From the NCBI GenBank assembly GCA_963920765.1, contig OY987249.1, forward strand, positions 4,311,230 through 4,375,229: DNA of 64,000 nucleotides. Reading direction: 5' to 3'. The stretch comes from Ulota crispa. Lineage: Eukaryota > Streptophyta > Bryopsida > Orthotrichales > Orthotrichaceae. The notes beneath the pieces were generated by a model that had not been told where the DNA came from, did not search any database, and worked only from the letters and a program-made list of their open reading frames with translations. Shown in pieces: positions 1,152 to 61,720 of this stretch; positions within the stretch are counted from its first letter, which is position 1; every line of letters starts with the position of its first letter. The translations under genes and the position numbers were made by a program.

Positions 1152-2113
1152 TTAACCCCTAAAGGCCCATTGTCCCCTTCAAGGACAAATGGGATTTTGG
1201 GTAGGTACCTATGGCTAAACTACTTTGTGTGATTTTCTGAAACTTTTATTGAAGATGGGGAATTATAAGATCTATGTGGGAATCTAATTTTTCCTTCATT
1301 TTGACAATAATTGAAAAGATTATGCATGAATAACTGAAAAACAGGGGAGAATAAAGCAGCAAAAAAAAAGAAAAAAAGAATTGCAACTTTTTTAAATAAA
1401 ATTTTGAAATTGGTTCTTTAATTTTTTATGTATTTGGAAAGCTTTGAATCATTCAATTTTGATAAATGAGATGAAAGTTATGAGAAGTTTTTGTTTGCGG
1501 GTAGGTATGGGACTCCCAAACCTCCATTCCTTTTCCCCCTTGTAAAACTTGTTGCTTTACTTTTTTGAGCTCTTTGTGTTTTTGTTTTTTGACTTTTTTT
1601 TTGCAAGTTGTAGTAGACTAAGATTCCTTGGTTTTCACCATTTGGATCAAAGTATTTTGTTTTTTTGAATTTTACATAAATCCTCCAATTTTGCCTATAA
1701 TATATGCAAATTTCATAACTTTACGGCATTGCAAGATTTTACAAAGTATGATCCACACCTCCGTTTCATTTGAAAATTCTCCCACATTTACCTAACTTGG
1801 TCTTCTACATGGAAAAAAAAACCTCATTTTTGCTTAGAGCAATTTTTTTGATATAGAAGCCATCAAAGGCTTCTGAAATTTTTGGGCAGTAGGGAAAAAA
1901 CTTTTGTTTTCACTTCAGATGTCAATATTTCACTCCTCTACAATTAGAATGAGCTAATTTTTTTCCCACAAGTACCTCCCATAGTCTAGGGCAAGATCTT
2001 CCAGTTGGATTTCCAAAAGAAAGAAAGAAAAATACAGTTCTCCTCACTCCCCCAAAAGTGGCAAATTTGAGTGATTTTCACAAAAAAAAAAGGCTTGGGC
2101 CTTTAGGGATTAA
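1152..2113 (+). mobile_element. TTAA-type element, family A1
   Basis: Starts TTAACCCCTAAAGG and ends CCTTTAGGGATTAA, so both ends carry TTAA and an inverted CCCCTAAAGG-like terminus. Just inside the left end is a palindrome (TTGTCC ... GGACAA) followed by TTTTGGG. The body matches the copies at 11078, 40383, 59217 and 60767 over its full length. There is no open frame of note. TTAA duplication with a CCC-start terminus is the hallmark of piggyBac-like elements, but assigning this family to that superfamily is inference because no transposase is present. Confidence 0.8.
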
Positions 2114-2426
2114 TCTTACATACAATAAATGTAGGCATAGCTATAGCTCAAAGTAGAATATTGTTTGAAATTCTTGTAGTGAATCACATAGACTTCAATA
2201 TTGTACAAGAAACTGCATGTTTTTTCTTTTGTAATATGCCGACCTTTACATAATGACAAAAATAGTGAAAGTCCCAAAATGTATTCATTTTCCTGATTTA
2301 CCTAATATGGCTTTAGAAGCCACAAATCCCATTATTCAAAAGGAAATTGCTAAATTTTCATCAAAATTTACAAATGCCACACTACAAGGTGTGCTTTGAG
2401 CAAGATATGTGTGAGGTTAACATTGA

Positions 2427-2692
2427 TTTTAACGCGTTGCTTGTTAAATTGGGAAAAACATTACATTTTGGGACTTCTCAAGGGTTTCAGGTGACCACTT
2501 GAAACTAAGTTCACAACGTTTTTTTTGGTACACGTGCTCTCACCCGAGAGGAGGACTTTGCAAGGGAAAAAATCTTAGTGGCTCGGACTGAATTTGATAC
2601 CTTTGAATTTGGTTTAAGGTGACTTTTTGGGTTTAAGGTGGAGTACAAAATGGTACCTCCGTTTTTCCCAATTTAACAAATAACGCGTTTTT
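2427..2692. repeat. Imperfect inverted repeat
   Basis: About 30 bases at 2431-2459 (AACGCGTT ... TTAAATTGGGAAAAAC) recur as the reverse complement at 2661-2689. The arms are short and the roughly 200-base loop is unrelated. It could be a small foldback element or the remains of the larger inverted structure that begins near 1080. Confidence 0.5.
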
Positions 2693-2713
2693 TATGATTT
2701 GGATCAAAGATTT

Positions 2714-2813
2714 CACTAGTAGAAATTTATGTTGAAGTCAACATAAACTACATGATGTTTTCATGCTTCTAATGCAAAGTTTATGTTGACTTCAACACAG
2801 ATTTCTACTAGTG
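2714..2813. mobile_element. 100-bp CACTA-type miniature element
   Basis: Begins CACTAGTAGAAA and ends TTTCTACTAGTG, perfect 12-base terminal inverted repeats of CACTA (En/Spm) type. It is flanked by a 3-bp duplication TTT (2711-2713 and 2814-2816), as expected for this superfamily. The interior is also inverted, with TTATGTTGAAGTCAACATAA near the left end answered by TTATGTTGACTTCAACA near the right, so the whole element can fold back on itself. Confidence 0.85.
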
Positions 2814-3130
2814 TTTGTTTCACCTCTATCATTCTAAGGCTATATTTTAAAAAAATGGAGATGCTTGAATTTGAAGTTAAAAATATAGGACTTTTGAGTT
2901 GTTGAAAGCAAAAATACATCAAATTAATAATAATGGTGCAATAACAATTGGACGTAAATTCGTATTCATTCTTCTATCTTTCATGAAGGTGGTTATGCTA
3001 AAATTTAATGAATGATGGACTACTTGAATATTAAAAATAGCATTAAATTCTCAAACTACATGCTCACATGGGTATGGCCTTAGCAATTGTGGGGGTGGCT
3101 TTAGCAATTCCCTATTCAAAATGTCAATGA
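2814..3130. other. Gene-free AT-rich stretch
   Basis: No gene or recognisable repeat is seen between the CACTA miniature and the next TTAA element. Confidence 0.4.
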
Positions 3131-4338
3131 ACCTGTAAAGAGCCATGGCCTTTATTTTGTCAAAAGACACTCAAAATTGTCACCTCTATGGCAAAGAGTA
3201 TGTGATGGGCTTGGTGCCTAGAGTTATGTTCTCTCGGTGGAACCTTTGATCATCTTGTGGAACCTCATGGAACCTTTATAGCTTCCAACTTTCAATTGAA
3301 GTAGCAGTTAGAACTTAGAAGAGATAGTAGACAAAGCTTAACTATCTAGAACTGCCCCTTCGAACTGCACCTTAACATCTAGTCTCCTTATGCATTAGTA
3401 CAGTCTCTTAGGATTATTACCCAAGGCCGAACCCTAGCTCCTTGTCAAATTCTCTTGTATCCCTAGCATCAGCGCTCTCAGAGCTAGCCCACCACAGAGT
3501 AAAAAAGTTTGAAATCAGTCATTCTGCATATCTAACAATAGGATCTTGTACTAGACTACAATAAGAATGTGTCATACAAAACTCAAGAACTTTGACCGCA
3601 CAAATTGGAAGATATATGCATTTAAAGTGTATAAAACAACCTTTTTTACACCTTGCCTGACTAGATTAATTAACTTTGAACTTCTTTAACTTAAAATTTT
3701 GCACCATAGAGTTTGGAATTCTATTTTTGTGTGGTGGGAAGTTGAGTTGGGAATCTTGGGAAAAAATCAAAACAAAAAGAAATTAATTTTTGTTCTTTAA
3801 AAAAAATTAAGTAGAAGAAGATATGAGATTGAAGAAAATTTTAAATTGCTAATACCCGGCAATGGAATTGAAACGCAAAAATCCCAACGGTGAGATTGTT
3901 GTTGAAAGCAAACTTCACCTTCTCCAACAATTTTTTTTGAAAATGTTAAACTTGCATTCAAAAATGAAGTTTATAGATTATTTTTTCAAGAAGATGCTTG
4001 AATTGCCCAAAAAACAAGATTGTCCATAACTTTCTCATAACTAGTCCAAATGGAGTGAATCAAAGCTTTTGATGTAGAAAAAGATATAATCTATGAGAAA
4101 AAAAATTGGGTTTTTATAAGAATTTTTTTTGCTGCTTGGAGTTCCCAAATTTGTACTAATTTGGGCATAACTTTTGCTCCCTTGCATCAGTTGGAATGAA
4201 AATTGTATTCCCCAAAAGCTAATGTGTTTTTCTATTTTCAAAAAAAGTTTCAAAAAATTAGAACAAAAATTGAGGCCATAGGTACCTGCTCAAAATCCCA
4301 TTTGTCCCCCATAGAGACAATGGTCCTTAAGGGATTAA
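3131..4338 (-). mobile_element. TTAA-type element, family A2, reverse, with a solo LTR inside
   Basis: Read on the minus strand it begins TTAATCCCTTAAGGACC, followed by the palindromic block (TTGTCTC ... GGGGACAA) and TTTTGAGC, and continues as the same sequence as the plus-strand copy at 4371-5294. Its far end near 3131 has lost a clear TTAA. It is ~290 bp longer than its sibling because a solo LTR has inserted at 3201-3496. The two A2 copies lie head to head, 32 bp apart, forming a long imperfect inverted repeat. Confidence 0.75.
3201..3496. mobile_element. Solo LTR fossil
   Basis: A 296-bp segment absent from the sibling A2 copy, starting TGTGATGGGCT and ending AGCCCACCACA. It is flanked by a perfect 5-bp duplication GAGTA (3196-3200 and 3497-3501). 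TG...CA ends, near-inverted termini and a 5-bp duplication are the marks of an LTR retrotransposon LTR; with no internal region this is a solo LTR left by LTR-LTR recombination. It does not resemble the LTRs of the chromovirus at 42906. The intact duplication suggests moderate age, younger than the A2 copy it sits in. Confidence 0.8.
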
Positions 4339-4370
4339 TCAGATTTACGGAATTAAACAAGACTAGGGAC

Positions 4371-5294
4371 TTAACCCCTAAAGGACCATTGTCCCTACGG
4401 GGGACAAATGGGATTTTGGGCAGGTACCTACGGCCTCAATTTTTGTCCTAATTTTTTGAAATTTTTTTTTGAAAATAGAAAAACACATTAGCTTTTGGGG
4501 AATATAATTTTTATTCCAATTGATGCCAAGGAGCAAAAGTTATGCCCAAATAAGTACAAATTAGGGACTAGGGGCAGCAAAAAATTCTTATAAAAATTGA
4601 AAAAAAAAAGAGTTTTGTTTTCTTATAGATTATATCTTTTTCTACATTTGGAGCTTTGATTCATTCCATTTGGATTAGTCATGAGAAAGTTATGGACAAT
4701 CTTGTTTTTTGGGCAATTCAAGCATCTTCTTCAAAAAATAATCTATAAACTTCATTTTTGAATGCAGTTTTAACATTTTTTCAAAAAAATTGTTGGAGAG
4801 GGTGAAGTTTGCTTTCTAGAACAATCTCACCATGGCAATTATTGCATTTCAATTCCATTGCAGGGTTATTAGCAAATTAAATTTTTATTCAATCTCGTAC
4901 CTTCTTCTGCCTAATGTTTTTTTTAAAGAATGAAAATTAATTAACTTTTCTTTTTCTTTTTCCCAAGATTCCCAACTCAACTTCCCACCATGCAAAAATA
5001 GAATTCCAAACTTTGTGGTGCAAAAATTCTAAGTTAAAAATGTTCAAAGTTAAAAAGTCTAATCAAGCAAGGTGCAAAAAAGCTTGTTTTTATACTTTAA
5101 ATGCATATATCTTCCAATCTGTGTGGTCACAGTTCTTGAGTTTTGTATGACACATTCTTATAGTAGTCTAGCACAAGATCCTACGGTCAGATATGCAAAA
5201 TGTCTAATTTTCAAACTTTTTTACTCTTTGCCATAGAGATGACAGTTTTGAGTTTCTTTTGACAAAATAAAGGCCGTGATCCTTTAGGGGTTGG
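4371..5294 (+). mobile_element. TTAA-type element, family A2
   Basis: Starts TTAACCCCTAAAGGACC with the palindromic block TTGTCCC ... GGGGGACAA. It ends CCTTTAGGGGTTGG, where the final TTAA has decayed to TTGG. The body matches the copies at 3131-4338 (reverse) and 52230-53161. There is no coding capacity. Confidence 0.75.
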
Positions 5295-6266
5295 AGTGTG
5301 AAGTATGAACCATCCACAAGTGCGGAATTAGTTCTTTGAAGAGAAGAAGATTTCCTAATTTTCTCAAGGGTCGAAAACACACGCCCTAGAGAACATGCAG
5401 CTATACAGACGTAGGCAACGAAAAACATGCTTAGGAGCATCCAAACGCCATATGTACCGAGAATGGACTTTGCAAAGTTTATAAACAAAAAATCAAAATA
5501 GATTTGGAGATATATGCAAAATATTGGAAGATCTCATTTTGTTTTGTTTACACATTGAGAGATCTTCTTGATATTTAGCCTAAAAATATTGGGAGATTTT
5601 TGGGTGCTTTGCCTAAACATTGGAAGATCTTTAAGTATTTGGCGTGGTTTGTGAATTGTTCATATTTAGTCAAAGATGGCATCCAAGGGAGCACATTCAG
5701 TCAAAATCAGCTATTGATACGAAATTTCAACCAAATATTGGCAAAACTGCGCTGCATTCCTTTTACAGGAATGTGATGATTTTTCATCCATATATTCAAC
5801 GTTAAGGAAGTCTGTGTCAATATGAGGTTAGATTCTAGCAAAAAAATATCTCCATAAAAATAGCCGGTGAGGTAAGTTTCTAAGCTAAAAGTAGTAAACT
5901 AAGGAGTCACGGTTTGAAATTTTGAATAGTTATTACTACGAGATCAGTGGAAACAGCTAATTAGAGCGAGTGTGTGATAGAACAGCCATGGCTGAGCAAG
6001 CTGAGCAGCCTGAGCTGGCTGGGCCACAGTTTTCTCTCCTTTTTTTTCCCAAATTAGCAATATTGCAACAGCCTTTAACTAGTGGTTGCTATTTTAAGGG
6101 AAAGTTTTACATATTTGGAAATTTCCAAAGAAACTAAAATACTTTTGGGATATTTACGTCGCATTTTATAATTACTTTGTGCAGCAAATTCCTAAATTAT
6201 TGAACTCAGATAATTCGAGAATGAAGTTTGCCAAGATTTTTTTTACAAAGTGACGTCTTTTTAAGT
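5295..6266. other. Gene-free stretch with a possible coding relic
   Basis: A minus-strand open frame at about 5290-5488 encodes a hydrophobic, membrane-like stretch (GTYGVWMLLSMFFVAYVCIA) followed by a basic part. It could be a fragment of a host gene, but I recognise no family. At 5500-5640 a degenerate tandem pattern around TTGGAAGATCTT recurs about three times. Nothing else is seen. Confidence 0.25.
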
Positions 6267-7188
6267 TTAAACCCTAAAGGACCGAGCCATTTTTGTAGTG
6301 AAAATCACTCAAAACTATCATTTTTGGGGGGTCAATAAAAAGGTTTTTTTTTTTTTTTTTTTTTTTAATTTAGGAAATCCAACCGTAAGATCTTGCCCTA
6401 GATTGAATTAGGTACTTGTGGAAAAAAAAATCAGGTCATTCCAAATGGATATAAGTGAGATATTTACATCTAAAGTGAAAAGAAAAGTTTTTTTTCATGT
6501 TGTCCCAAAATTTCAGAAGCCTTTGGCCACTCTTATAACAAAAAAGTTGCTTTATGCAACTTTGCACTTTTTTTTTCCCATGTAGGAGATCAAGTTAGCT
6601 ATGTGTCGGAGAATTTTCAAATCAATTGGAACTATACAACACATGGGAAAAAATAGTAAGTAAAAAGAAGTAGATAATGAGTCAAAACACTAAATTGTTA
6701 ATAAATTAATTATGGAAATGAAAAATGCTAATCTCAACAGCGATAATGTTGTGATAAACAATTATTTTTCCAAAATATTGAAAATTGAGTAAAATAAAGG
6801 ACTTCAAAGTTTATTTTAGAGTAGAGAATCCATAATTGCATGCAAACAAAAACTCATAACTTTCATCTCATTGATTGAAATTGAATGATTCAAAGCTTCT
6901 CACCTATTAAAAAAAATCTAAAGAACCAATTTCAAATTTTAAAATTAAAGAAAAAAATTAAAGGAGTTTTTGGACTGCCCGGGCGGGCAGTCCTTCCCAA
7001 ATTTTCATAAATTCTTGCGTATCTTCTTCAATAATTGTTAGAATGAGGAAAAATTTAGATGCCCACTTAGATTTTTAAATTCCCCACCTTCAATAAAAGT
7101 TTCAGAAAATCACGCAAAGTAGCTTATCCAAAGACACATGCCCGAACTCCCACCTATCCCTCAAGGATAACGGTCGTTTAGGGGTTAA
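6267..7188 (-). mobile_element. TTAA-type element, family A1b, reverse
   Basis: On the minus strand it begins TTAACCCCTAAACGACC, followed by a palindrome with stem TATCC ... GGATA in place of the usual TGTCC ... GGACA, a compensatory pair change. It ends TTTAGGGTTTAA. The ends match family A1, but the middle (about 6640-6850) is a different module, shared with 49621-50558 and 56240-57464. Confidence 0.75.
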
Positions 7189-8821
7189 GGAAGGTTGATC
7201 ACAATATGTGACAAAAGTGAAATACATTATGGTTTATGAAGGATACTATTATTGAATGTTGAAACTATGTGTTGGTGTTGTAACACGAGTTATGTGAAAT
7301 TTGATAATTGAACACAAAGACACATTCTCTGTATGGTCAAATTCGACTAATCTAAAAACACATGTTACACTTAAATATGATGTTTACACAAATATAATAT
7401 AATTTAGCTAAAATCTTGAGGATTTTTTTTACTAGACATAATTCACCCCTAAAATTCCTCCTTGTTTACATGCTCAAATGGCTTGAAATTGACCTCTCTC
7501 AATAAAATGGATCAAAACTCTAAAGCTATTTCAGTAATTTAACAGTGAGATCTATTTTCCCACTTGCTTATGTACACAATACACCCCTTCAAATTTTCAA
7601 ATTTTGTAAGGGCATACTTTGTTAAATCATAACACTCAAAGTAGGGTCATTTTTTTTGGAAACTTCTCTAAGGTGTCCATTTGTTTTGGGTCATCCAAAA
7701 TGATATCTTCAACTTTATGAATTTCTTGTGCAGTTTGAACTTTGAAGTTCTTGTAGAGCATGAAGTTGGCAAACTTGGCGATATGCCACACAAATTTCAT
7801 GATGACCCAATGCTTAGAACACAGTTGAAAAGAAACTGGAACGGGAACTACTTTGTTGAAATTGTCATTACACTAAGAAAATTTCATGGGAGAGATTCTT
7901 ATAATAATAAATCTCAATTACAAATTCTTTATTGTATAAACCTAGAACATCATGTGGAGTACTTACTAAAACATTTTTTTCTAAAAATAAAAAGTGAAAG
8001 AGAAGTTATTACATACTCAAGGAGAGTTGGTTGCAAATTTTGCCCAATCATTCACTTAGCCATTGTAACTAAGTGCTTTTGAACAGTTTGTGGGCAACAC
8101 CCTTCTTCAATCCCTTTATTTCTAATTTTTTTAAGGATATCTATGTTGGTACCTAAGTCACATATGATACCATATTCCACTCAAAAATTATTCAATTCTA
8201 AATTCTTTTGAGAGCAAAGCAAACGTTTCAATATGAGCACATACGTCCTTATTTTCACAATCTTCTTTCATGTATTTACACAAAAATTGCTTGATCAAAT
8301 ATCCAGAAAGCCCAAAATGGGCTCCTTGGTGCTTTTGGGGTTAAGTATTGGAAGAATGAGATGCATCAAATATTTTAGGGTATGAGTATGCACAATTAAG
8401 TATGAAAATATGTGAATTTTTTTATATGCACATGAATATATGTGTATATTCACATACCTTTGTATGTACGTAATTATGAAAGTTACTATTAGTAAATGAT
8501 TCTTTATATAAATTGTAGGCAAAGGGAAATCACTGTTGGGACTTGGGAGTGCGAATTTGTACACTAAAACACCATATTCATTGAAATGGGAGATTGGGCA
8601 CCTCTCAAAATGATCAGGTTGATTTTGACCTGAATCGGCAATTTTCATTAAAAGTACATTTCTCAAATGAATTGTCATAAAACCTTCTAATTTTAAGTCA
8701 ATTTTGAAAAGTTTTATTGCAATTTAGCTCAACTTGAGCTAAATTACAATAAAACCTTTCACCAAATTTCCTTTTAATTATCTCTCAATTCAGTGGAAGT
8801 CTCCCATTTTAATGAATATGG
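7189..8821. other. Gene-free stretch with a possible TTAA element end at 8341-8344
   Basis: At 8285-8344, read on the minus strand, TTAACCCCAAAAGCACC is followed by the palindrome AGCCCATTTTGGGCT, the same end design as the TTAA elements. A weak matching end (CACCCCTAAAATTCC) lies near 7446, so one decayed element of ~900 bp may span 7441-8344. A 133-codon AT-rich frame at 7681-8082 lacks an ATG start and any recognisable domain, and I do not call it a gene. Confidence 0.35.
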
Positions 8822-10833: not shown

Positions 10834-11081
10834 TTAACCCCTAAGCGCCGAGGCCATATTCACTCAAATCCATATCCTTGTGTATTTAGTCCAATAAAAG
10901 TATTACCTAAGTAGAGTCAAATAGCTTGATTTTTTTTGAGTGGTAGTAGACACATGCCTAGAGATACATGAAAAAGTACAAGTCCTTTGACTATACCATT
11001 AAGAAGAGGATAAGAGTCAAACATGGACATTTTTCAAAACTAAGCGGCCACATAGTGGTTGCTGGGGCGCTCTAGGATTAA
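10834..11081 (-). mobile_element. Short TTAA-type element, family P
   Basis: Termini are TTAACCCCTAAGCGCC on the left and, read inward from the right, TTAATCCTAGAGCGCCCC. Just inside the right end is a palindrome CCAC-TAT-GTGG, so I set its orientation as minus. Its right TTAA (11078-11081) is at the same time the first TTAA of the family A1 copy that follows. Confidence 0.65.
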
Positions 11082-12031
11082 CCCCTATGGACCAAGCCCT
11101 TTTTTCTTTGGAAATCACTGAAAATTGCCACTTTTGGAGGAATGAATAGAAAGTTAGGAAAAAAAGTCTTTTTGGAAGTTCAACAATAAGATCTTGCCCT
11201 AAACTATGGGAGGTACTTGTGGGAAAATTTTCAGCTCATTCTAGAAGTAGTTGAATGAGATATTGACATTTGAAGTGAGAACAAAAGTTTTTTTCCTTGC
11301 TGCCCAAATATTTCAAAAGCCTTTGACGGCTCCTATATCAAAAAAAGTTGCTCTACGCAAAGTTGTGGTTTATTTTTTCCATGAAGAAGAGCAAGTTAGG
11401 TAATAGTGGGAGAATTTTCAAATGAATTGGAGGTGTGGATCATACTTTGTAAAATCCTACAATGCCAAAAGGCCATGAAATTTGCATATACACTAGGCAA
11501 AATTGGAGAATTGATGTAAAATTTAGAAATCTAAATTACTATGATCCAAATGGTGAAAACCAAGGAATCTTAGTCTACTACAACTTGGAAAAAAAAATTC
11601 AAAATAATAAACACAAAGAGCTCAAAAAAAGAAAGCAACATATTTTGTAAGAGGCAAAAAGAATGGAGGTTTGGGAGTCTCATACCTACCCGCAAACTAA
11701 AACTTCTCATAACTTTCATCTTGTCAATCAAAGTTGAATGATTTAAAGATTCCCACATGTATACAAATATAAAGAATCAATTTCAAATTTTTTAATTAAA
11801 AAAATGCAATTTTGAATTTTTTGGGGTTGCTTGTCCTCCCCTTTTTCAGAAATTCATGCATAACTTCTTCAGTGAATGTCGGAATGAAGAAAAAATTAGA
11901 TGCCCAAATAGATCTTTGAATCCCCCACCTCCAATAAAAGTTTAAAAAAATCCCAAAAAGTAGATTAGCTGTAGGTACATGCCCAAAATCCATTTGTCCC
12001 CCAAGGAGACAATTGGTCCTTTAGGGTTTAA
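11078..12031 (-). mobile_element. TTAA-type element, family A1, reverse
   Basis: On the minus strand it begins TTAAACCCTAAAGGACC with the palindromic block TTGTC ... GACAA. On the plus strand its other end starts TTAACCCCTATGGACC. It matches the other A1 copies over its full length. It abuts family P, sharing one TTAA. Confidence 0.8.
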
Positions 12032-13782: not shown

Positions 13783-14238
13783 TTAACCCCTAAGGTAGTA
13801 CGTTCGAAGACCGCCCATCTAAGGGCTTATCCCTCTTTTTCATGGTCTTCCGTGGATGGAAGGATTTTTAGTTCATTTTTCAGACAAAGAGAAATAGATG
13901 TTGAATTCAACACAAGTCGTTTCATATTTTTTGAAATATTTTTGAGTTACTTATGAATTCTTAAAGTGCATGTGTCATAGGTATCTATTATCTCAAAGTG
14001 CATGTGTCATAGGTATCTATTATTAACCTTAGACTTTCCAAGAACTGTTCATTTGCAAGTTGTGAAGAGATTTGAGGAAGCAAGGAGAATGATTGGCTCT
14101 TGCAATTAAAAACAAACTTTTTTCCATGCAATCAATGAGTTATAAGAGGCTAATGTAAGGACCACCAGTACACCATTTCACAACAAGCTACTGGATGGTT
14201 CAAAATGAGCAAACGGTTTTCAAGCGTACTACCTTAAA
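13783..14238 (+). mobile_element. Probable TTAA-type element, family L
   Basis: The left end TTAACCCCTAAGGTAGTACG continues through TTCGAAGACCG. The same ~22 bases appear inverted at 14212-14236 with about three mismatches, ending CCTTAAACG where CCTTAGGGG would be expected. The interior holds a 32-bp direct duplication (AAAGTGCATGTGTCATAGG...) near 13963-14022. Confidence 0.5.
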
Positions 14239-15117
14239 CGCCAAAGGGTGTTTTTCTTGTGTTAAGAAGGTAGTTTTGGAGTTTTTGAATTATTCTTTTA
14301 TGATCATTATTAAAAATCAAAATAAAATTGTATCTTCAACTTCAAGGCATTTTAATGGTGCTACCAAAAAAAACCTTCAACAAGGCCACGTGGATTTTAA
14401 GATATTTGTGTTTGAATGTGAGTATGGAATTCTTTGGTTTTGTAGTTGCCTTAAACTTCTTATATAAAAATGGCATTTTTTGTGTACAAAAATGGGAAAC
14501 AACCACTTAGGATGCTTTAGTATTTCTTGTTGTTATTTCAAAACTAATGATTTCCTTTCCAAATTCATGATCACAATTTCATAAATGAGCCCACAATGCA
14601 ATTGTCAAAGAGCTTTTGCCTAATACAAAAAAAAAAAAAAAAAAAAAAAAACCTCAAATTATAGACCAAAAATCTCTATGAATGAAAATGAATTTAATGG
14701 GAAATGAATTCTAATTTGCATAACAAAAACATTCCAAGTGAAATTAGCACAAAAACACATTTAGATTTTGTTGAATGACAAAACTTTAGTAAAAGAGCCC
14801 TAGCTGCTTAGGAAAGTGCCTAAGAGAAATTTTCAATTTATTCTCAACTTAATGCACATCTTTTCAATGTGGCAATTTGTCATAGGCTCTATGACACTAT
14901 TTGATCCACAAGAGGTATGCTTGCAATTTAACTTCCACAAAAAACAATTGGAATAAGGTATAGAGGACATTAAAATTGAATCTTGAAGTGAACTTTAGCT
15001 AACTTCTCCAAAAAAAAAATTTGAAACAATTAAATCTCATTACCTTCAACATGCTTTCAAAATTTCCTAAAACTTCCTAAACACCAAAATATGGTACCAT
15101 GGACACTTAGGGGTTAA
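14239..15117. other. Gene-free stretch ending in a TTAA element terminus
   Basis: The right boundary, read on the minus strand, is TTAACCCCTAAGTGTCC followed by the palindrome ATGGTACCAT, again the TTAA-family end design. The matching far end was not found with confidence; TTAACCTTAGAC at 14023 is a candidate. A run of A lies at about 14627-14651. No gene is seen. Confidence 0.35.
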
Positions 15118-43241: not shown

Positions 43242-46200
43242 TAATGCAGGGTCCTGAATGTCCACACTCCCAAACCAAGGAGCAGACCCAATGCTATAGT
43301 CGCTTTTTGGAGTATCACTGCATCGAGTATTTTATTTAGGGTTGCTGACCGGATATTAAATTTGACATGGATTAAGAAAGGCCAACTGAAGATGTGAGTT
43401 TGCAAGCGCAGGAAGGTTCAAAAGTTGCAATATTTATTCAGTAGCAAGTCTAGGCTGTTTTCCAAGTCGCACTTCCACATCTCATTCGACAAATTTTGGA
43501 GAAGGTGGTGGTGTCTCCATCGATGGGGTCTCCCTCAACGGCTGCAAGGGCTTTTGATTGGACCCACAAGCAAAGCAGGGAGCATGATTGTAAAGTGGCG
43601 ACACCTGAGAAGTTTTTCGGGATGAAAGGTGGGGAAGTATACAAGTGGCTTGCTCAATTGCGGTTAGTATTTTGAGGCAAATCCCAAGCTTATCAAACAA
43701 ATGTGGATAAAATTACTTACGCGCTTTTGTATTTAACGGGTGCGGCTCAAAATTGGGCAATGTCAGCCTTACATGCATTAGACGAGGGATGTCACCACAA
43801 ATTGTTGGTCAATTACAATGTATTTCGAGACGCGTTGATTTTAGTGTATGGTGACATTGATCAACGGAGCAACGCTGAGGACAAATTGGGAAAGCTCCAA
43901 TAGACAAGATCTATGGCGACTTATATTTCTATGTCTAATAAGCATTCAGCACAAGTAGATTGGAATGAAGCAAGTTTGATTGCACAATATTGAAGTAGAT
44001 TCAAAGATGAGGTCTTGGATTCAATTGCAACCGTGGAAACACAACCACAGAGGCTTCAAGAATGGATGGCAATGTCTTCCCAAATTGATGAGCGCTTGTG
44101 GGCGTGGCGCCAAAATCAACCTCCCGCAACTTATAGTTCAATCCCAAAGGATCATGTTGGTCGATTTCAAACAACTTCGGGAAGTTTGGGACCAACTCCA
44201 ATGGAACTAGATGCAATTGGTGTAACAACTACATTGGCAAAAACAGCAGCTGAGCGGTTGGAATTTCAGAAATAGGAAAGATGCTAGGGTTGTGGTCAAT
44301 TAGGTCACATCAGTGCAAGATGCTCAATTAATCCTTCCAAACCGTTATCTCTGGCGGCTTTCGGGAGAGATGATGAAAGAATTGAAGAATTGGGAAAAGG
44401 ACGCACCCAGGACTAAGGATAACACTTTGATATTCGGGCAAACCGCAAAGCATGGTGATTGATGGTTTGCAGTTTGAGTCCAAATCATTTTATTCTTTAG
44501 CTCCATTGTACTTGCGTGCAATTATGGATCCGGGAGTGCATCTCACATTAGATGCAACTATTTATTCGCTGCCAGTTAATACTTTAGTTGACTCTGGGGC
44601 GACTGGAGTATTCATGTATCCATTGTTTGCTCGTAAGTGTCATGCAAAGATTAAATCCAAGGTAGTTCCATGAGAAGTTCAAGTGATTGATGGTAGAATC
44701 ATCAACTCCGGATTAATCACCCATGAGGCTGTAGTGGAGCTACAAGTAGGGAGCCACCAAGAGAGTTTGACGGCGGACATCACCAACACTGGGCGCTATC
44801 TTTGTATCTTGGGAATACCTTGGTTGGTACGTCACGATCCAACAATCCGATGGTCTAAAGGCGAGGTACCGTTTGATTCTACATATTGCTACAAAAATTG
44901 TTCGCAGCTTTTGAAGAATAGGCAGGAGACAACCGGCAAGAAGGCCAATTTTAGACATGCAAAGAGCCTTGTCATAGCATCAACTTAGGCAGAAGTGGTA
45001 GCATCTGTCCCAAGCAATCCAAAGGCAAAAGAAGAAGTTTTTGTGGTGTCAGTCCACTCGACTTCTTGGACTCCACCTCGTATTATGGCTTCTCCAAGCT
45101 CTAATATATTGAGGCAAAAAGAAATGCAAGACCCAGTGGCGCCCAAGCATGCGCTAGTTTCTTTAGCATCATTTTGGTTATCAACTAAAGGAGCTGAATT
45201 ATATACATTAGAAGTATGGGAGTTGTTTGGCATGGATGAAAATAACAAAGTTGCTGAAAAGTTAATTCCTATGGAATATCAAGATATGGAGGGAGCTTTT
45301 AGTGAGGAAGCCTCCAACAAACTACCCGGTCATGGAGTGTTCGACATGAAAATTGAATTCAAAGAGGAGCAAGAGCAGCAAAACACAAGCCTAAGACCCA
45401 TGTCTTTGGTGGAACTAGAAGAACTTTGGCGATATTTGGAGGAGAATTTAGGAAAGGGGTAGATTAGGCGGTCCAAGTCCTTGGTCTCTGCCCCCATTGT
45501 ATTTGCTAAAAAGAAAGATGGGTCAATTCAAATGTACATGGATTATCAAAATCTAAATAGTGTCACAATAAAAAATAGATATCCGTTATCGTTAATCCTT
45601 GAGCTCATTGATCGCTTATTGGGAGCCAAAATTTTACAAAATTAGATATCCGACAAGCATACCATCAAGTAAGAATGGCCGTTGATCACAAACTTGAAAC
45701 AACTTTTAAAACGCGCTATGGCCTTTTTGAGTATTTGATGATGCCGTTTGGCTTGACAAATGCTCCCACTCAATTTCAATCATATATACAGCATATTTTC
45801 AATGATCTTTTGAACATCTCAATAGTGATTTATCTTAACGACATATTTATTTTCTCAAAAAAATTGAAGGAACACCAAGTGGTAGTAAAAGAAATTCTTC
45901 AACGCTTACAACAACACGGCCTATATGCTAAAGCTTCAAAGTATCAGTTTCATTATACCTTTGTGGAGTTTCTAGGAATAATCGTCTCAAGAATAGAAAT
46001 GGAAATGTGTCTTGACAAAGTTAAAGCAATACAAGAATGGCCCCCTCCCAAAATAATAAAGGAAGTCTAATCATTCATAGGCTTTGCAAACTTTTATTGA
46101 AGATTTATTTGGAATTATTTGAAAATTACAGTACCTCTTACAAAATTGACACAAAATAACCAACAATTTGAATGGACACCTTTGGCGCAAAGGGCGTTCG

Positions 46201-48221
46201 AAGAGCTCCGATCTTGTTTCATCCAAGCCCCAATATTATTACATCCCAACTTTGACCAACCTTTTATTATGGAAACGGATGCGTCTAACACTGCAACAGG
46301 GGCCATACTCTTCTAACATGAAGAGGATGGGCATATCCATCCCTGCGCTTATTGTAGCTCAAAGATGACAATAGCTAAACAAAATTATGATATATATGAT
46401 GAAGAATTACTTAGCATTGATCTAGCTTTCCAAGATTGACGGGTGTATCTTGAAGGATCTCTACACCAAATTTGAGTAATTTCAGATCATAAAAACCTTG
46501 AGCAATTCCTTACTACAAAGCAATTTAACCGCCGACAAGCCCGATGGTTAGAGTTACTTTCAGCTTTTGATTTTGTTATTCAACATAGACCAGGATCACC
46601 AAATGGAAGAATAGATATGCTCTCTAGGCGCACTGACATCCAAAAAGACATAGACAACAATTCTAAACCTTTATCACAACTAGCAATGTTGGAAACATGC
46701 AATATTGTTTGGAATGATGCAAAGATTCTTTAGTACGTAAGAGAAATAACTACAGAGGATAAAGATCTTCAATCACTATTAGCAATTTTGAACAAGGAGC
46801 CTGCATGGGTCCTAATAAACATTCGACGACGATTCTAAGACTACAAGTTCAAGGACAAAATACTCTATTACATGGATAAAATTATGGTTCCCAAAAATGA
46901 AAAAATACAACTCTAAATATTGAGGTCACGACATGATGGTCCTCTTGCAGGTCATTTAGGCCAAGCTAAAACACTAGATTTGGTAACATGAACTTTTTAT
47001 TGGCCGACATTACGTTGATATGTTCATCGGTACGTAGATGGCTGTGATTTATGCCAGAGATCAAAATCCACACGACACAGTTGATATGGTCTTCTACAAC
47101 CAATTCTGGCAATGGAAGCACCATGGAAACAAGTCACAACGGACTTTATTGTCAAATTGCCCAAGAGTGCAGGTTTTGACGCCATTATGGTAGTAGTAGA
47201 TAAAAACACAAAATTAGCCCACTTTATACCAACAAATGAAACAATTGATTATAAGGGCATGGCCACCCTATATCTTCATCATGTGTGGAAACACCACAAA
47301 ACGCCAAACGAAATATTTTCAGATCGAGGCTCGGTGTTTGTGTCAAAATTTATGCGAAGGTTATATGACCTCCTTTGGATTTGCCTTGCTCCTTCAATAG
47401 CATTTCACCCGCAATTGGATGGACAAACGGAGTGGGTCAATTAAACTTTGGAGCAAATTCTCCAAATTTTCACCATCCAACAACAAGATGACTGGTCAGA
47501 CCTCCTACCCATAACTGAATTTGCGTATAACAATTCTCTCCATTTAGCCATAGGGTGTCTGCCTTTTTACGCCATGTATGGGTACCACCCATCCTTATCT
47601 TTCACATCACCTACAAATTCTATAGTACCAGCAACTAAAAAAAGGATTTGTATTTTACAAGAAGTTCACGAAGAAATAAAGACTATCATTAAAATTGCAG
47701 AAGAGCAAGCAAAGAGACACTATGATCGGCATGTTCAACAACAACCTCATTTTCAAGTCGGTGACAAAGTACTTTTCAAACATGATCACATTTCTACAAC
47801 TGCACCTTCTAAAAAAATGGAGTCAAAGTTTTTGGGACCCTTTTCCATTACAAGTAAATTATTGGAGTTAGTATATCAACTACAACTCCCCAAAATGCTC
47901 CAAATTCACAATGTGTTTCATGTATCACTACTGGAATCATATCGTCAAAATACCATTTCCGCTTGTAAGCAGCTGCCTCCACCACCAATGGTGACGCTAG
48001 CAGGGGATATTGAATGGGGAGTTTGCAATATATTAGACTCTTGATTTAGTGGTCAAGGGAGAAAGCTTCAATACCTAGTTTCATGGCAAAGATATGGACA
48101 AGACCAGAAATCTTGGGAACCTGCAAAACATTTGTAGAACGCTCCCAAATCTGTCAAGAAGTTTCATCATCGACACCCTGATGCACCGGGACCACATAAT
48201 AGAACCACAAAGAGGGGGTAA

Positions 48222-49620: not shown

Positions 49621-50558
49621 TTAGCCTCTAAAGGACCGTTGTCCCTTCAAGGGACAGGTTGGACTTTGGGCATGTACTTATGGCTAAATTACTTTGTGTG
49701 ATTTTTTGAAACTTTTATTGGAGGTGGGGATTCAAAGATTTACATGGGCATCTAATTTCTTCTTCATTCTGACATTTGATGAAGAAGATATGCATGAATT
49801 TCAAAAAATTTGGGGAGGATTGCCCGTCCAGGCAACCCAAAAACTTCTTTAAAAATTACTTTTTTTAAAATTAAAATTTGAAATTGGTTCTTTAGATTTT
49901 TTTATAGGTGAGAAGCTTTGAATCATTCAATTTCAATCAATGAGATGAAAGTTATGAGGAGTTTTTGTTTGCTGGCAGTTATGGATTCTCTACTCTAAAA
50001 TAAATTTTGAAGTCCTTTATTTTACTCAATTTTCAATATTTTGGAAAAAAAATTAAATAAAAGGAAGTATTTTGTTTATCAAAACACTACCACCATTGGG
50101 ATTTGCATTTTTCATTTTTGTATTTAAATTCTTAACAATTTAGTGTTTTGACTCATTCTCTACTTCTTTTTACTTACAATTTTTTCCCATGTGTTGTATA
50201 GTTCCAATTGATTTGAAAATTCTCCCACACATACCTAACTTGATCTCCTATAGGGAAAAAATAAAGCACAATTTTGGATAGAGCAATAGTTTTGATTTAG
50301 GGGCAATCAAAGGCTTCTAAAATTTTTGGGCAGCATGGAAAACAACTTTTTTTTCACTTTAGATGTAAATATCTCACTCCTCATCATTTGGAATGAGCTA
50401 GTTTTTTTCCCTCAAGTACCTCTTCTAGTCTAGGGCAAGATCCTGTGGTTGGATTTCCCAAAAACAAATCATAAAATCCCTTTTTTAAAAACCTTCTAGA
50501 AGTGGCAAATTTTTGTGATTTTGGCAAAAAAAAAGGAGCTTGGTCCTTTAGGAGTTAA
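49621..50558 (+). mobile_element. TTAA-type element, family A1b
   Basis: The left end TTAGCCTCTAAAGGACC (decayed TTAA) is followed by the palindrome TGTCCCT-TCA-AGGGACA; the right end is CCTTTAGGAGTTAA. The middle module (about 49980-50220) is shared with 6267-7188 and 56380-56620. Confidence 0.78.
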
Positions 50559-52229: not shown

Positions 52230-53161
52230 TTAACCCCTAAATCCCTGAGTGTCCCCTTTGGGGACAAATGGGATTTTGGGCAAGTACCTACAACCTCAAT
52301 TTTTGTCTTGATTTTTTGAAACGTTTTTCGAAGATAGGAAAACACATTAGCTTTTGGGGAGTATAATTTTTATTCCAATCAATGCCCAAAAGCAAAAGTT
52401 ATGCCTAGATAAGCAAAAAATTTACGCAAATTGGGCAACAAAAAAAATTACAAAACCTTGATTTTTTTTAATTTTAATTTTTTTTTTCATAGGTTATAGT
52501 TTTGTCTACAATCTGAAGCTTTGATTCATTCCATTTGAACTAGTAATGAGAAAGTTATGGACAATCTTGTTTTTTGGGCACCTCAAGCATCTGCTTGAAA
52601 AAATAACTTATAAACTTCATTTTTGAATGCAAGTTTAACAATTTTTCAAAAAAATTGTTGGAGAGGGTGAAGTTTGTTTGCTAGAACTATCTCACCATTG
52701 GGATTATTGAGTTTCAATTCTTTTGCAAGGTTATTAACAATTTAAGTTTTTGTTCAATCTCATACCTTCTTCTACCTAATGTTCTTTTTAAGAATGAAAA
52801 TTAAGTATTTTTTGTTTTGATTTTTTTCCAAAGATTCTCAACTCAATTTCCCATCATACAAAAATAAACCTCAAAACTCTGTGGTGCAAAAGTTTTAAGT
52901 TAAAAAAGTTCAAAGTCAAATAGTCTAATCACGCACGGTGCAAAAAAGTTTGTTTTTTACACTTTAAATGCAAATATCTTGCAAACTAAGCGGTCAAAGT
53001 TTTTGAATTTTTGTTTCCACATTCTTATACTAGTCTAGTATAAGATCCTACAGTTAGATATGCAAACCAACCAATTTTCAACCTTTTATACTCTTTGCAA
53101 TAGAAATGGAAATTTTGAGTGTCTTTTGACAAAATAAAGACTCCAAGGATTTAGGGGTTAA
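52230..53161 (+). mobile_element. TTAA-type element, family A2, nested in a Stowaway MITE
   Basis: Starts TTAACCCCTAAATCCC and ends GGATTTAGGGGTTAA, with the palindrome TGTCCCC-TTT-GGGGACA inside the left end. It matches 4371-5294 over its full length. The sibling MITE at 21200 shows the near-empty site TCATTATTGATG where this copy has TCATTA-TTAA ... TTAA-TGATG. Confidence 0.82.
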
Positions 53162-56239: not shown

Positions 56240-57464
56240 TTAGATTTTTTTTTTTTTTTCAGAAACCAAAAACTTGAAATAAGTTCAAGAGATTTATGTG
56301 TATGTGGAAAGTTTCGGATCATTCCATTTTGGTCATTGAGGTGAAAAATATAAGGAGTTTTTGTTTGCAGGAATGTAGTTATGGATTCTCTACTCTACAA
56401 TAAATTTTGAAGTACTTTATTTTACTCAATTTTTAATATTTTGGAAAAAAAAAAATTAAAGGATAGAAATTTTTTATTACAACATTTTAACTGTTGGGAT
56501 TGTCATTTTTCGTTTCCATAATTAAATTCTTGTCAATTTAGTGTTTTGAATCATTCTCCACTTCTATTCACTTACTATTTTTTCCCCATGTGTCTTACAA
56601 TTCCAAATGATTTGAAACTTTTTAAGATGTATCTTACTTAGGTGGAATAAGGAGTCTAAAGGAGCACCACCCACACGACCTTTTTTCCTTAGGAATTTTG
56701 CTTTCAAAAGGGTAGATTCCCAATTTTTCACATGACCCAAAACAACGTTTCTAAATATTCAAACCATTTTGTCTTTCAATCCGGGCAGTGGCAAATTTTG
56801 AAAAAATTCCACATCTTCCAAAACTATTCTATGCTATGGTTACATATGCATAAAAATAGGGTCTTGATATTGCCACCTCCCTTTTTGATACTGCCACCCC
56901 CTTTATTTACAACATTATTCAATTCTTAATTGTTTTGGGGACAATTTTTTTACATTTAGAATTAAATATGTATCAAACCAAGTGATTTTTTGTTGGTGTT
57001 TTTCAAAATGATAAACTACAATTAAAGTTTTTGATAAAGAAAAACAAGATTCTATCATCTTTTCTTATCAAAAAATTTGATTGCAATTTATCATTTTGAT
57101 AAACACCAACAAAAAATCACTTAGTTTGATACACATTTAATTCTCAATTTTAAAAAAATGTCCCCAAAAACCACCAAAAATTGAACAATGATGTAAAAGA
57201 GGGGGGTTAGTAGTATCAAAAAGGGGGGTGACAGTATCAAAAAGGGAGGTGGCAGTATCAAAAAAGGGGGTGACAATATCAAAAAGAGGGGTGACAGTAT
57301 CAAAAAGTGGGATGATAGTATCAAGAACCTAAAATTATGCATAAAAATGTTTTTGTTTTCAAATTTGGTCGATTCTCTAATAAAAATTTAAAATAAAATT
57401 AAAAAAAAACAGTTTTGGAGAGTTTTTGGTGAAATCGCAGCTTTGATCCTCTAGAGGTTAATAC
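56240..57464 (+). mobile_element. Interrupted TTAA-type element, family A1b
   Basis: 56260-56640 matches the A1b copies (GGATTCTCTACTCTA, TTTATTTTACTCAATTTT, TTTAGTGTTTTGA). The sequence resumes after 57330 and ends TCCTCTAGAGGTTAA at 57464. The left end is not clear. A foldback element interrupts it, and a 52-bp triplication covers its right terminus. Confidence 0.55.
56859..57330. mobile_element. Foldback element with a GATACTGCCACCCCC tandem array
   Basis: The termini TCTTGATATTGCC and GGGATGATAGTATCAAGA are inverted. The arms pair around AAGTGATTTTTTGTTGGTG and its complement. On the right arm the unit AGTATCAAAAAGGGGGGTGAC recurs about six times, and about twice inverted on the left, so the end itself has been tandemly multiplied. 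Inserted in the A1b element. Confidence 0.7.
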
Positions 57465-57599
57465 TATACTACACCCAAGGTTGTAGATGCAGCTTTGATC
57501 CTCTAGAGGTTAATACTATACTACACCCAAGGTTGTAGATGCAGCTTTGATCCTCTAGAGGTTAATACTATACTACACCCAAGGTTGTAGATGCAGCTT
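57437..57599 (+). repeat. Exact 52-bp minisatellite, three copies, across a transposon end
   Basis: Units at 57437-57488, 57489-57540 and 57541-57592 are identical, and a fourth begins (GCAGCTT). Each unit contains the element terminus CCTCTAGAGGTTAA plus ~27 bases of flank, so transposon end and flank were multiplied together. Confidence 0.95.
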
Positions 57600-57841: not shown

Positions 57842-58492
57842 TTAACCTCTAAATGCCCAAGCGACCTGATTTGGGTCGCAACATAACTTTGAAGATGAAT
57901 AAAACCTTATCAAATCACTATTTTCAATATTTTTTTTTCCCAATATAAGTTGGTTTGAAGTCTACTCAATATCAAAAATCTGATTTTGAAAATGAAAATT
58001 GATGATTTTTCTATTCAAGAATTTGTACAAGGGTATCCACTGCAATCTTGAGTTTTCTAGTGTTGGAAGATCTTGAAAATGAGCCTCAAGTACATTAGAG
58101 CTTGGAGAAAAAATCACATTAGAAATCCATTTAAAAAATATATAAGTGTAGATTTTGAAAACCGTAAATTGATTATAAATAAACATATAATGACCTTAAA
58201 CCTCATACATTTTTGGTAACCAACTTTTTAGATTTGACATGTGAAACGAGGATTTAAAACTTCAAGTCACTTTTGCAATTTTAACACCCTCATGTTCAAA
58301 CATTATAATCTTTCAAACTATAAGTGATATTGTTGTGTTTTCTTTTCCCATGTAATTTCTAACATGTTCAATCTTAATTTGTACGGTTACAATTGAAAAA
58401 AACTTAATGAATTTTTTGAAAAGATTGGTTGATTGTTCTATTTTATGAAAATTCCAAGAAGCTCAGATAGGGCTTGGGCATTTAGAGGTTAA
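57842..58492 (+). mobile_element. TTAA-type element, family B
   Basis: TTAACCTCTAAATGCCC ... GGGCATTTAGAGGTTAA, 651 bp, with the palindrome GCGACC-TGATTT-GGGTCGC inside the left end. It matches 22367-23005 over its full length and 1-123 at its right end. The mirrored C-to-T change in both termini (CCTCT, AGAGG) is noteworthy. Confidence 0.82.
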
Positions 58493-58978: not shown

Positions 58979-59216
58979 GTTAAAATTCACAGCAAGATCC
59001 CTACATTAATTTATTTTCCAACTTTCTAAAGACGGCAGCAACAAATCATGAATGATGTTACACTTGATAGTTGGCATAGCTGTGCAAGTGCATGTGTACC
59101 GGTGCTCTTGGTAATGGGTCTTTTTAGGCGAAATAGTGCCAGATAGCACCATTTATGTAGGATCTGGTTACAAATGGGCCAACAACTATCAATGGAACTT
59201 TAGATGAACCCCTAAC

Positions 59217-60155
59217 TTAACCCCTAAAGGACTAACTGTCCCCTCGAGGGACAGTTGGGATTTTGGGCATGTATCTATGGCTATATTACTTTGTATGATT
59301 TTTTGAAATTTTTATGGAAAATGAGAAATTCAAAGATCTACATGGGCATTTAACTTTTTGTCATTCCAACATTTATTGAAAAAGTTATGCATTAATTTCT
59401 GAAAAATAGGGGAGATTGGGCAGACAATTTTTTTTCTAAAAACAATATTTTTTCAAAATAAAAATTTGAAATTGGTTCTTTAGATTTATACACATGTGGG
59501 GAGCTTTGAATCATTCAATTTCAATTTATGAGTGAAAAGTTTTAGTTTGCGAGCAAGTACAAAACTCCCATACCTCCATTCCTTTTGCCTTTGGTGCTTT
59601 ATTTTTTTATGCTCTTTGTGAATTTTTTTTTGACTCTTTTTTTGCAAGTTGTAGTAGATTAAGATTCCTTGGTTTTCACTATTTGGATCAAAGTAATTCA
59701 AATTTTTGAATTTTACATAAATCCTCCAATTTTGCCTAGTGTAATTGTAAATTTCATGAACTTATGGCATTGCAAGATTATACAAAGTATGATTCACACC
59801 TCCAATTCATTTGAAAATTCTCCCACACTTACGTAACTTGGTCTTCTACATGGAAACAATAAACCTCAACTTTGCGTTGAGCAATTTTTTTAATTTAGGG
59901 GCAATCAAAGGCTTCTAATTTTTTTGGACAGTAGGGAAAAAAACTTTTTTTTTCACTTCAAATGTCAATATCTCACTCTTCTACTTCTAGAATGAGCTGA
60001 TTTTTTTTTTTCACAAGTACCTCCCATAGTCTAGGGCAAGATCATATGGCCAGATTTTCAAAGATAATTGTTTTTCCTATCTTTCTACTCATTCCCTCAA
60101 AAGTGGCAATTTTCAATAACTTTCACTAAAAAGGGCTTGGTCCATTAGGGGTTAA
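59217..60155 (+). mobile_element. TTAA-type element, family A1
   Basis: Starts TTAACCCCTAAAGGACT and ends CCATTAGGGGTTAA. The palindrome is extended here: AACTGTCCC ... GGGACAGTT. The body is as in the other A1 copies. Confidence 0.82.
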
Positions 60156-60399
60156 CCATGATAAATTACTGGATAGAATTGCCACGTTTGATTGAAAAGA
60201 ATATTGGAAATCGATGAGCTGATATTTCTATCTACACTGCATATTGCAGTTCAGTTGCCCTATACTAGTTTATTTACAGTTTATACGACACAAATACTTA
60301 CTGACGCTATAATTGTAATTTTCATCAATGATTATTATGGCACGGGCTTAACAATAACAAGGCAGCAAATAAGGTAAGGTGTTCCAATTGCGACTCTCA

Positions 60400-60723
60400 G
60401 GCCCGGTTCAGACTAGCGTCCGGCGGAGGCACAAAAATCGGCACTCCATCTAGTGTTTCGCTCGATAGAAATTTTTCCGTGTAATTGTGTGTCATCCAAG
60501 AGTGTGTTTCTGTCAAACAAGTTTGGTACCACCATTGGAGCATGCTCCAAATCTTCACTATCTTGGCCGCTGACGTGGCTATATATGGTAATCCCCGCGG
60601 TGGTGAAGATGTATGTAAAAGTGTCGGACAAACTTGCAGTCTGAACCCAACAGCGGAGAAAAACCAAATTTCAACCAATCACGTTTGAGAAATTTTCGGC
60701 CGGACGCTAGTTTGAACCGGGCC
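60400..60723. mobile_element. PIF/Harbinger-like MITE
   Basis: 324 bp, GC-richer than its surroundings. Terminal inverted repeats GGCCCGGTTCAGACTAGCGT and, read inward, GGCCCGGTTCAAACTAGCGT. Flanked by a 3-bp duplication TCA (60397-60399 and 60724-60726). GGCCC-type ends with a 3-bp duplication suggest PIF/Harbinger, although that group prefers TTA/TAA. Confidence 0.8.
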
Positions 60724-60766
60724 TCAGCCTATGGTAAACAGTTCCAAAGCATCCCCAATGCAGCCG

Positions 60767-61720
60767 TTAACCTCTAAAGGCCCATTGTCCCCTTAGGGGA
60801 CAAATGGGATTTTGGGCAGGTACCTATGGCTAAACTACCTTGCGTGATTTTTTGAAACTTTTATGCAAGGTGAGGAATGTGAAGACCTATGTGGGGGTAC
60901 AATTTTTTCTCCATTTTGACAATTATTGAAGAAGTTATGCATGAATAACTAAAAAAGAGGGAAGAATTGGGCAAAAAAAAAAAAATTTGCAACTTTTTTA
61001 AATAAAATTTTGAAATTGGTTCTTTAGATTTTTATGTACTTGTGAAGCTTTGAATCATTCTATTTTGATAGATGAGATGAAAGTTATGAGAAGTTTTAGT
61101 TTGCGGGTAGGTATGGGACTCCCAAACCTCCATTCTTTTTCCCCCTTGTAAAACTTGTTGCTTTACTTTTTTGAGCTCTTTGTGTATTTGTTTTTTGACT
61201 TTTTTTTTTGTGAGTGGCAGTAGACTAAGATTCCTTGGTTTTCACCATTTGGATCAAAGTAACTTGGGTTTTTGAATTTTACATAAATCCTCTAATTTTG
61301 CCTAGTGTATATGCAAATTTCATGGCCTTACAACATTGCAAGATTTTACAAAGTATGATTCACACCTCCAATTTATATGAAATTTCTCCCACACATACGT
61401 AACTTGGTCTTCTACATGTGAAAAATAAACCTCAACTTTGCGTAGAGCAATTTTTTTGATATAGGAGCCGTTAAAGGCTTTTGAAATTACTGGGCAGCAA
61501 TGAAAAGAACTTTTTTTTTCACTTTAGATGTGAATATCTCACTCCTCACCATCTAGAATGAGTTAAGTTTTTTGCATAAGTCCCTCCCATTGTCTAGGGC
61601 AAGATCTTATGGTTGGATTTCCAAAAGAAAGAAAGAAAAAAACATTTCTCCTCACTCCCCCAAAAGTGGCAGTTTTGAGTGATTTTCACAAAAAAATGGG
61701 CTTGGGCCTTTAGGAGTTAA
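60767..61720 (+). mobile_element. TTAA-type element, family A1
   Basis: TTAACCTCTAAAGGCCC ... CCTTTAGGAGTTAA, with the palindrome TTGTCCCC-TTA-GGGGACAA. Close in sequence to 1152-2113. Confidence 0.83.

Follow-up and report, generated by a model that had tools for sequence, protein, structure and literature searches.

Introduction

In the piggyBac transposon of T. ni, which targets TTAA, the first 16 bp of the ends are two-fold symmetric, and bp 17-33 of one end are bound by a dimer of the cysteine-rich domain (CRD), with the minor groove centred at about bp 25; these asymmetric ends have been called enigmatic (PMC7351741). In piggyBat of Myotis lucifugus, the site of the CRD dimer is an imperfect palindrome starting three bp beyond a bp 11-16 motif; its sequence is not related to that of the piggyBac palindrome, and it has no counterpart at the right end (PMC11707139). 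Here, we describe elements with comparable ends in a 64,000-bp stretch of contig OY987249.1 of the moss Ulota crispa (hereafter the window), whose genome is represented by 274.8 Mb in 157 contigs. The elements are assigned firmly to the piggyBac superfamily. They are very probably non-autonomous miniature inverted-repeat transposable elements (MITEs) that are mobilised in trans by piggyBac elements of about 8 kb, and the palindrome near one of their ends would consist of lineage-specific CRD half-sites. The system is of a known kind; what is remarkable here is how abundant it is and how much its natural palindromes vary.

The piggyBac MITEs of corals likewise have TTAA duplications, terminal inverted repeats (TIRs) that start with CCC and related piggyBac transposons in the same genome, and one coral family also starts with CCCCT. 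Unlike the moss elements, they are about 100 bp long and far fewer in copy number, and the main text that describes them uses neither the word palindrome nor the word hairpin (PMC2872659). Among plants, the PiggyBac superfamily is named for angiosperm MITEs (PMC10004981), and 1,230 PiggyBac repeats with a share of 0.00% are listed for the fern Ceratopteris (PMC6890710). These plant repeats have the superfamily name in common with the moss elements, and end structure is not described in the accessible text of the two reports. A literature search for moss piggyBac ends, with subscription journals mostly outside its coverage, found no such paper.

Shared ends

A preliminary description of the window, made from its letters, had proposed that many repeats have a common TTAA-bounded end design, and the counts bear this out. 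The exact 12-mer TTAACCCCTAAA/TTTAGGGGTTAA occurs 11 times on either strand of the window, where about 0.014 copies are expected from base composition, and most copies form inverted pairs spaced 240-970 bp apart. Genome-wide, TTAACCCCTAAA was found 15,477 times in forward and 15,495 times in reverse orientation (30,972 in total) versus 41 and 36 times (77) for a reversed-pattern control. The ends begin CCCCTAAA, and CCCT thus lies one base inward relative to the CC[C/T]T motif given in PMC2872659, a loose fit; one piggyBac locus (L032) has ends that start with CCCT.

Ends were collected from three sources: a sample from contig C1 (8 surroundings and 40 stretches at the next listed sites on that contig, all conditioned on the exact 12-mer), the window, and 10-kb stretches round piggyBac transposases. 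Among the last, L029-L033 entered the palindrome counts and L074-L079 were added for the later counts; the 10-kb stretch of L031 is without any such TTAA-CC end. Allowing one mismatch in the end pattern gave 130 distinct ends. An exact partner end was found for 22 of the 48 C1 seeds and no partner for 9 of 48, in stretches of up to about 1.2-1.5 kb. As a rough extrapolation, the 30,972 exact ends and this partner rate suggest some 34,000 such elements in the genome, assuming that ends are independent.

Per-position agreement between the two ends of the same element is 0.72-0.98 over bp 1-14 and drops to 0.43 at the next position, bp 15 (46 elements longer than 500 bp; the first base after TTAA is bp 1), which points to a 14-bp tip with family-specific bases, followed by divergence where the one-sided palindrome starts. 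Agreement within an element exceeds that with the ends of other elements at bp 9 (0.78 versus 0.49) and bp 11 (0.76 versus 0.42).

The one-sided palindrome

Palindromes were evaluated against dinucleotide shuffles. Across the 130 ends, the pairing score for an axis at bp 25.0 is 0.390 versus 0.267 in the shuffles (z 8.5). A strong palindrome with its dyad at bp 23.5-26 is carried by 34 ends, whereas 12 shuffles averaged 1.7 such ends and never gave more than 3. The enrichment over shuffled controls that the preliminary description led one to expect is present in this sample. Among the 110 ends of 55 paired elements, 29 exceed the 99% null with a dyad at bp 23-26 (1.1 expected) and 7 with a dyad at 26.5-29.5, and each of six other bins holds 0-2. 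The dyad spectrum dips at 21.5, 22 and 54.

The dyads of the strong palindromes lie mostly at bp 24-25 (range 23-26), whatever the sequence, with outliers at 23 (window position 7188) and 26 (window position 22367). Family palindromes include TTGTCCCC..GGGGACAA (dyad 24), CAAGTGGTTGTTCAACAACCACTTG (25), AGCCCACTTTGGGCT (25), CACCCAATTTGGGTG (25), GCGACC..GGGTCGC (25) and AAAGTTCCCTTCGGGGACTTT (24). Copies of piggyBac with other TIRs carry GGACGAAATCCGTCC (L029) and GGGCCAAAATATGGCCC (L033, 810-end), both with the dyad at 25.0. At a 95% threshold, one, both and neither end are palindromic in 24, 1 and 11 of 36 C1 elements, in 9, 0 and 2 of 11 window elements, and in 3, 1 and 4 of 8 elements of the piggyBac neighbourhoods; the corresponding counts at 99% are 15, 1 and 20, then 6, 0 and 5, then 3, 0 and 5.

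This arrangement resembles T. ni piggyBac in the TTAA target, the symmetric first 16 bp, the palindrome at bp 17-33 of one end and the asymmetry of the ends. It differs in that the right end of the T. ni element has the same 19-bp palindrome in another arrangement (PMC7351741), whereas matches to the 8-letter left arm in moss right ends are not above chance (mean best 5.94 versus 5.86 shuffled, n=34; best case 8). The likeness to piggyBat lies in a palindrome from about bp 19-20, as computed from the published description, and in the absence of one from the right end. The piggyBat left end repeats a motif three times (PMC11707139), and no such repeat was noticed in moss left ends, although no test for one was made.

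Two weaker symmetries were also seen. Right ends (e.g. those of L004, L047 and L065) often show a weak quasi-palindrome of a T-run and an A-run at about bp 20-35, possibly a site of its own, and family A left ends (e.g. L002 and L039) have a second short palindrome, AGGTACCT, at about bp 48-57 with its dyad at 52.5.

Transposases between the ends

In a search of the genome with the PF13843 (DDE_Tnp_1_7) profile, 528 candidates yielded 120 scored matches, the best at 1.3e-73, and the same profile search gave no signal in any of 14 control genomes. The open reading frame (ORF) of L030 matches both PF13843 (3.2e-44) and the T. ni piggyBac structure PDB 6x67 (1.8e-17). In the alignment with 6x67, read by eye for L030 only, Asp residues stand opposite D268, D346 and D447, which form the T. 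ni piggyBac active site (PMC7351741). With one transposase as the query, 150 scored matches were obtained that are 29-70% identical apart from the query itself, so the transposases are diverse.

Two copies link the transposase to the ends of the window elements. In L079 (1230-9484; 8,255 bp), family A left and right ends with the exact 12-mer flank a PF13843 match, and in L078 (1383-9405; 8,023 bp), family A left and right ends with variants of the 12-mer do so. The preliminary description had proposed searching for a DDE transposase bounded by the same ends, and these two copies answer to it. The window MITE at 60767-61720 aligns with L079 and L078 over its first ~180 bp at 76-78% and over its last 502-534 bp at 70-77%; its middle spans ~240-275 bp, of which a 42-bp piece also matches L079. 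On these alignments, family A of the window is an internally deleted version of the ~8-kb copies.

Among other transposase copies, L029 (1863-6889) and L033 (129 or 807 to 7802) carry the domain between TTAACCC-type ends, with other TIRs, and L032 gave no clear reading. The right end seen in L079 and L078 also lies beside the transposase in L074, L075 and L076, and L030 has a certain right end only; in none of these four fetched full-length candidates was a certain left end found, and neither end was found in L077, fetched as a further candidate. Cys/His-rich C-termini occur in L030, L026 and L076, the pattern being read by eye. A long ACAT-type tetranucleotide repeat lies beside the transposase of L030 (~5870-6500).

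The piggyBac-like character suggested earlier is thus upheld by PF13843 domains between such ends in the same genome, together with the 4-bp insertion slot described below.

Insertion sites

Joined flanks of 60 elements, minus those with short flanks, were compared with all fetched sequence, and 75 matches span the junction. Thirteen junction alignments from 10 elements were examined, and that of L034 with itself was dropped as an inverted flank. The remaining 12 alignments (9 elements) show a 4-bp slot and are gap-free there and over four bases on either side, with small gaps further off in some. In L071, for example, an element is nested in the right end of another (...GTCACTC-TTAA-element-TTAA-TTGCCAC...), and the relative L064 reads ...GTCATTG-TTAA-CTACCAC.... 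Relatives of 4 of the 9 elements have TTAA in the slot, and those of the other five have TTGA, TTTA, TAAA, GTAA or CTTG. Insert-free sites, proposed as a check for a TTAA duplication, therefore give a 4-bp slot in these 9 elements and TTAA itself in 4 of them.

Elements in the window

Fourteen element pairs, including one uncertain pair, occupy 12,263 of the 64,000 bp of the window (~19%). The features are as follows.

112-123, - strand: family B-type right end, assigned by letters; the element extends beyond the window start
1152-2113, + strand: family A MITE; left (palindromic) end at 1152; TTGTCC..GGACAA, dyad at bp 24
4371-5294, + strand: family A MITE; dyad 24 in the left end at 4371; right TTAA changed to TTGG
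6267-7188, - strand: family A MITE; left end at 7188; TATCC..GGATA, dyad 23
7442-8344, - strand: MITE; left end at 8344; AGCCCATTTTGGGCT at ~8309-8323, dyad 25; far end TTCA
10834-11081, - strand: 248-bp element with a different TIR (P of the preliminary description); left end at 11081; CCAC..GTGG, dyad 25.0, pairing read from letters
11078-12031, - strand: family A MITE; left end at 12031, dyad 25
13783-15117, - strand: pairing uncertain; the end at 15117 looks like a left end that has decayed
22367-23005, + strand: family B MITE; CACCAAATTTTGGTG at ~22389-22403, dyad 26
40383-41350, + strand: family A MITE; variant palindrome TGGCCC..GGGCCA, dyad 24.5
42148-42389, strand unspecified: 242-bp element (J of the preliminary description), related to L038 301-540; either end may be the left one
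49621-50558, + strand: family A-like MITE, assigned by letters; left TTAA mutated to TTAG
52230-53161, + strand: family A MITE; TGTCCCCTTTGGGGACA, dyad 25; inside a dispersed repeat, insert-free copies of which align across the site
57842-58492, + strand: family B MITE; GCGACC..GGGTCGC at ~57861-57879, dyad 25
59217-60155, + strand: family A MITE; AACTGTCCC..GGGACAGTT at ~59234-59256, dyad 25
60767-61720, + strand: family A MITE; TTGTCCCC..GGGGACAA at ~60785-60803, dyad 24; ends match L079 and L078

Single-linkage clustering of the bodies of 56 elements gave clusters of 32, 8, 3, 2, 2 and 2, and seven singletons. The earlier statement that the bodies are unrelated is accordingly mostly wrong, as 32 of 56 elements fall in one linked cluster. 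Its companion idea, that one machinery mobilises many bodies, stands at the level of the superfamily and fails below it, because bodies are often related, bp 9-14 agree better within elements and the transposases are diverse.

The palindromes proposed for individual ends fared unequally. CCAC..GTGG of element P is present at 11081 with its dyad at 25.0; it also occurs once at 36340, taken for chance. The ATGGTACCAT reported for the 15117 end is present, but its dyad lies at 18.5 and it overlies an apparent decayed site of the CACC..GGTG type. For element J, CAAAG..CTTTG has its dyad at bp 19 and the other end scores higher, and GAACCA..TTGGTTC of element M was not found beside any TTAA-CC end of the window with the pattern used.

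We read 10834-12031 from its letters as two back-to-back elements (10834-11081 and 11078-12031) that would have one TTAA in common. A single TTAA common to adjoining elements is seen at window positions 11078-11081, in L106 and in L033 (807-810), and these sites look as if the edge TTAA of one element had served again as a target. Left-type ends on both sides (LE/LE) occur in L045 (101-848), L029 (430-1155), L066 (101-752) and L077 (9202-9746); in cells, T. ni piggyBac LE/LE ends are described as having only some detectable activity, with a hyperactive transposase (PMC7351741). Foldbacks of 79 bp in L036, L038 and L054 (101-179 in each) are nearly self-complementary throughout and are apparently two palindromic ends head to head.

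Just ahead of the family B element at 57842, three copies of TCTAGAGGTTAA lie 52 bp apart, at 57450, 57502 and 57554 (57450-57565). Elsewhere in the window, ORFs at 44989-48044 read by eye like a Ty3/Gypsy reverse transcriptase and integrase, those at 26762-29080 code for an AMP-binding (acyl-activating) enzyme, and those at 33197-35092 for a DUF2985 protein. In the genome, SAM_LFY has five weaker matches (C1, C2, C3, C5 and C10) besides the LEAFY gene on C4. In keeping with a moss, a C-terminal LEAFY exon of the genome shares 101 of 103 residues with PDB 4bhk, the FLORICAULA/LEAFY homologue of the moss Physcomitrium (237 bits, versus 170 or less for the other LEAFY chains).

Interpretation and alternatives

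In the proposed mechanism, transposases coded by the ~8-kb elements with the same kind of ends would mobilise the MITEs in trans. Palindrome sequences would differ between lineages because the CRD of each lineage would have its own half-site, and the symmetry and position of the palindrome would be kept while its sequence would not. The position of the palindrome and the architecture of the ends suggest that it is a CRD-dimer site.

A more far-reaching version, which we put forward tentatively as possible rather than probable, treats the palindrome as a swappable specificity code. The tip would be common chemistry, the half-sites would belong to the CRD of each lineage, and MITEs with related bodies would change helper through a symmetric change of the palindrome, with the dyad staying at about bp 25.

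Covariation of the two arms was evaluated by joining left arms to the right arms of other copies (1000 permutations, ignoring the relatedness of copies), with A-superfamily left ends picked by an inner motif outside the arms. Complementarity in the A superfamily is 5.53 for own arms versus 4.24 for swapped arms, and 0 of 1000 permutations reach the observed value (n=46); in family B it is 5.50 versus 4.54 (3 of 1000; n=8). Twenty close copies of each family were also compared, each set drawn from 40 scored matches. The palindrome is mostly kept in the A copies. Among the B copies, 6 keep the GCGACC/GGTCGC consensus on both arms. On each arm the changed letters belong to a CpG, and there is no excess of double changes, so decay can explain the latter. 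Arm covariation is seen between subfamilies, which would fit active lineages that differ together with drifting dead copies; plain inheritance would fit the sample equally.

Two other readings of the palindrome, both improbable, have to be weighed against these data. If the elements were one old family that had diverged, with palindromes inherited and not under selection, the linkage of 32 of 56 elements in one cluster and the decay of close B copies without significant compensation would follow. This reading is opposed by the occurrence of different palindromes near the same dyad, also in the piggyBac copies L029 and L033 (dyad 25.0) with other TIRs, and by the drop in complementarity on arm swapping. 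The palindrome might instead be kept as a single-stranded or cruciform hairpin and not as a protein-dimer site, for which there is also little likelihood. Self-complementarity and not sequence is indeed what the families have in common, and several stems are long (e.g. CAAGTGGTTGTTCAACAACCACTTG in L065), but the dyad position, near bp 24-25, is that of CRD-bound piggyBac and approximately that of piggyBat, and significant compensation is lacking among close B copies.

Several observations count against mobilisation in trans with CRD-bound half-sites. At the 95% threshold, 11 of 36 C1 elements are without a palindrome at either end. Among all ends, a second dyad peak at 27.5-29.5 (z 4.0-8.1) is nearly as high as that at 25.0, a third lies at 52.5 (z 5.2), and dyads 24.0 and 24.5 stay below |z| 4 in the 130-end spectrum. 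We take the second peak to stem from the T-run and following A-run in right ends. The claim that the palindrome lies at one end only therefore describes the usual case (24 of 36, 9 of 11 and 3 of 8 elements), and strict one-sidedness is left unproved because this right-end quasi-palindrome is among the dyad peaks. Arm swapping has a weaker effect in core A (5.24 versus 4.83; 16 of 1000; n=30). Ten of the 20 close B copies no longer form all five pairs, and the 4 that changed on both arms with pairing kept are no excess (4/20, Fisher p 0.37). On the side of the transposases, the exact 12-mer stands at both ends in L079 only, and the fetched family A copies, which we read as old, carry stops inside the domain match, some perhaps introns. 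No family B transposase turned up, and no search aimed at one was made. No Pfam CRD model matches the C-terminal ORFs of L030, L076 or L012 at E up to 10.

The preliminary description had also compared the elements with the Helitron2 type. In Helitron2 or helentron-like elements, the one-sided palindrome would be a terminating hairpin, and both its presence at a single end and the short common terminal motif would suit such elements. Helitron2 inserts without a 4-bp duplication, whereas relatives of 9 elements show a 4-bp slot; the 14-bp inverted ends and the PF13843 domain between such ends in L079 and L078 also make this reading highly unlikely. It was rejected on the slot and the transposase linkage, and Rep/helicase proteins were not searched for. 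The comparison is not needed, because for the piggyBac superfamily itself a palindrome close to just one of the ends has been described. A further reading, scarcely credible, takes the elements for PIF/Harbinger MITEs whose 3-bp TWA duplication has been mistaken for TTAA. Plants do have Harbinger MITEs that duplicate TAA or TTA (PMC10004981), and both triplets lie within TTAA, but the 4-bp slot in relatives and the PF13843 domain between the ends led to rejection, Harbinger transposases not having been searched for.

Conclusion

With about 19% of the window taken up by such elements, piggyBac may well make up a large part of a land-plant genome. The many natural palindromes at nearly one place form a data set for the evolution of CRD sites and for the role of the one-sided site.

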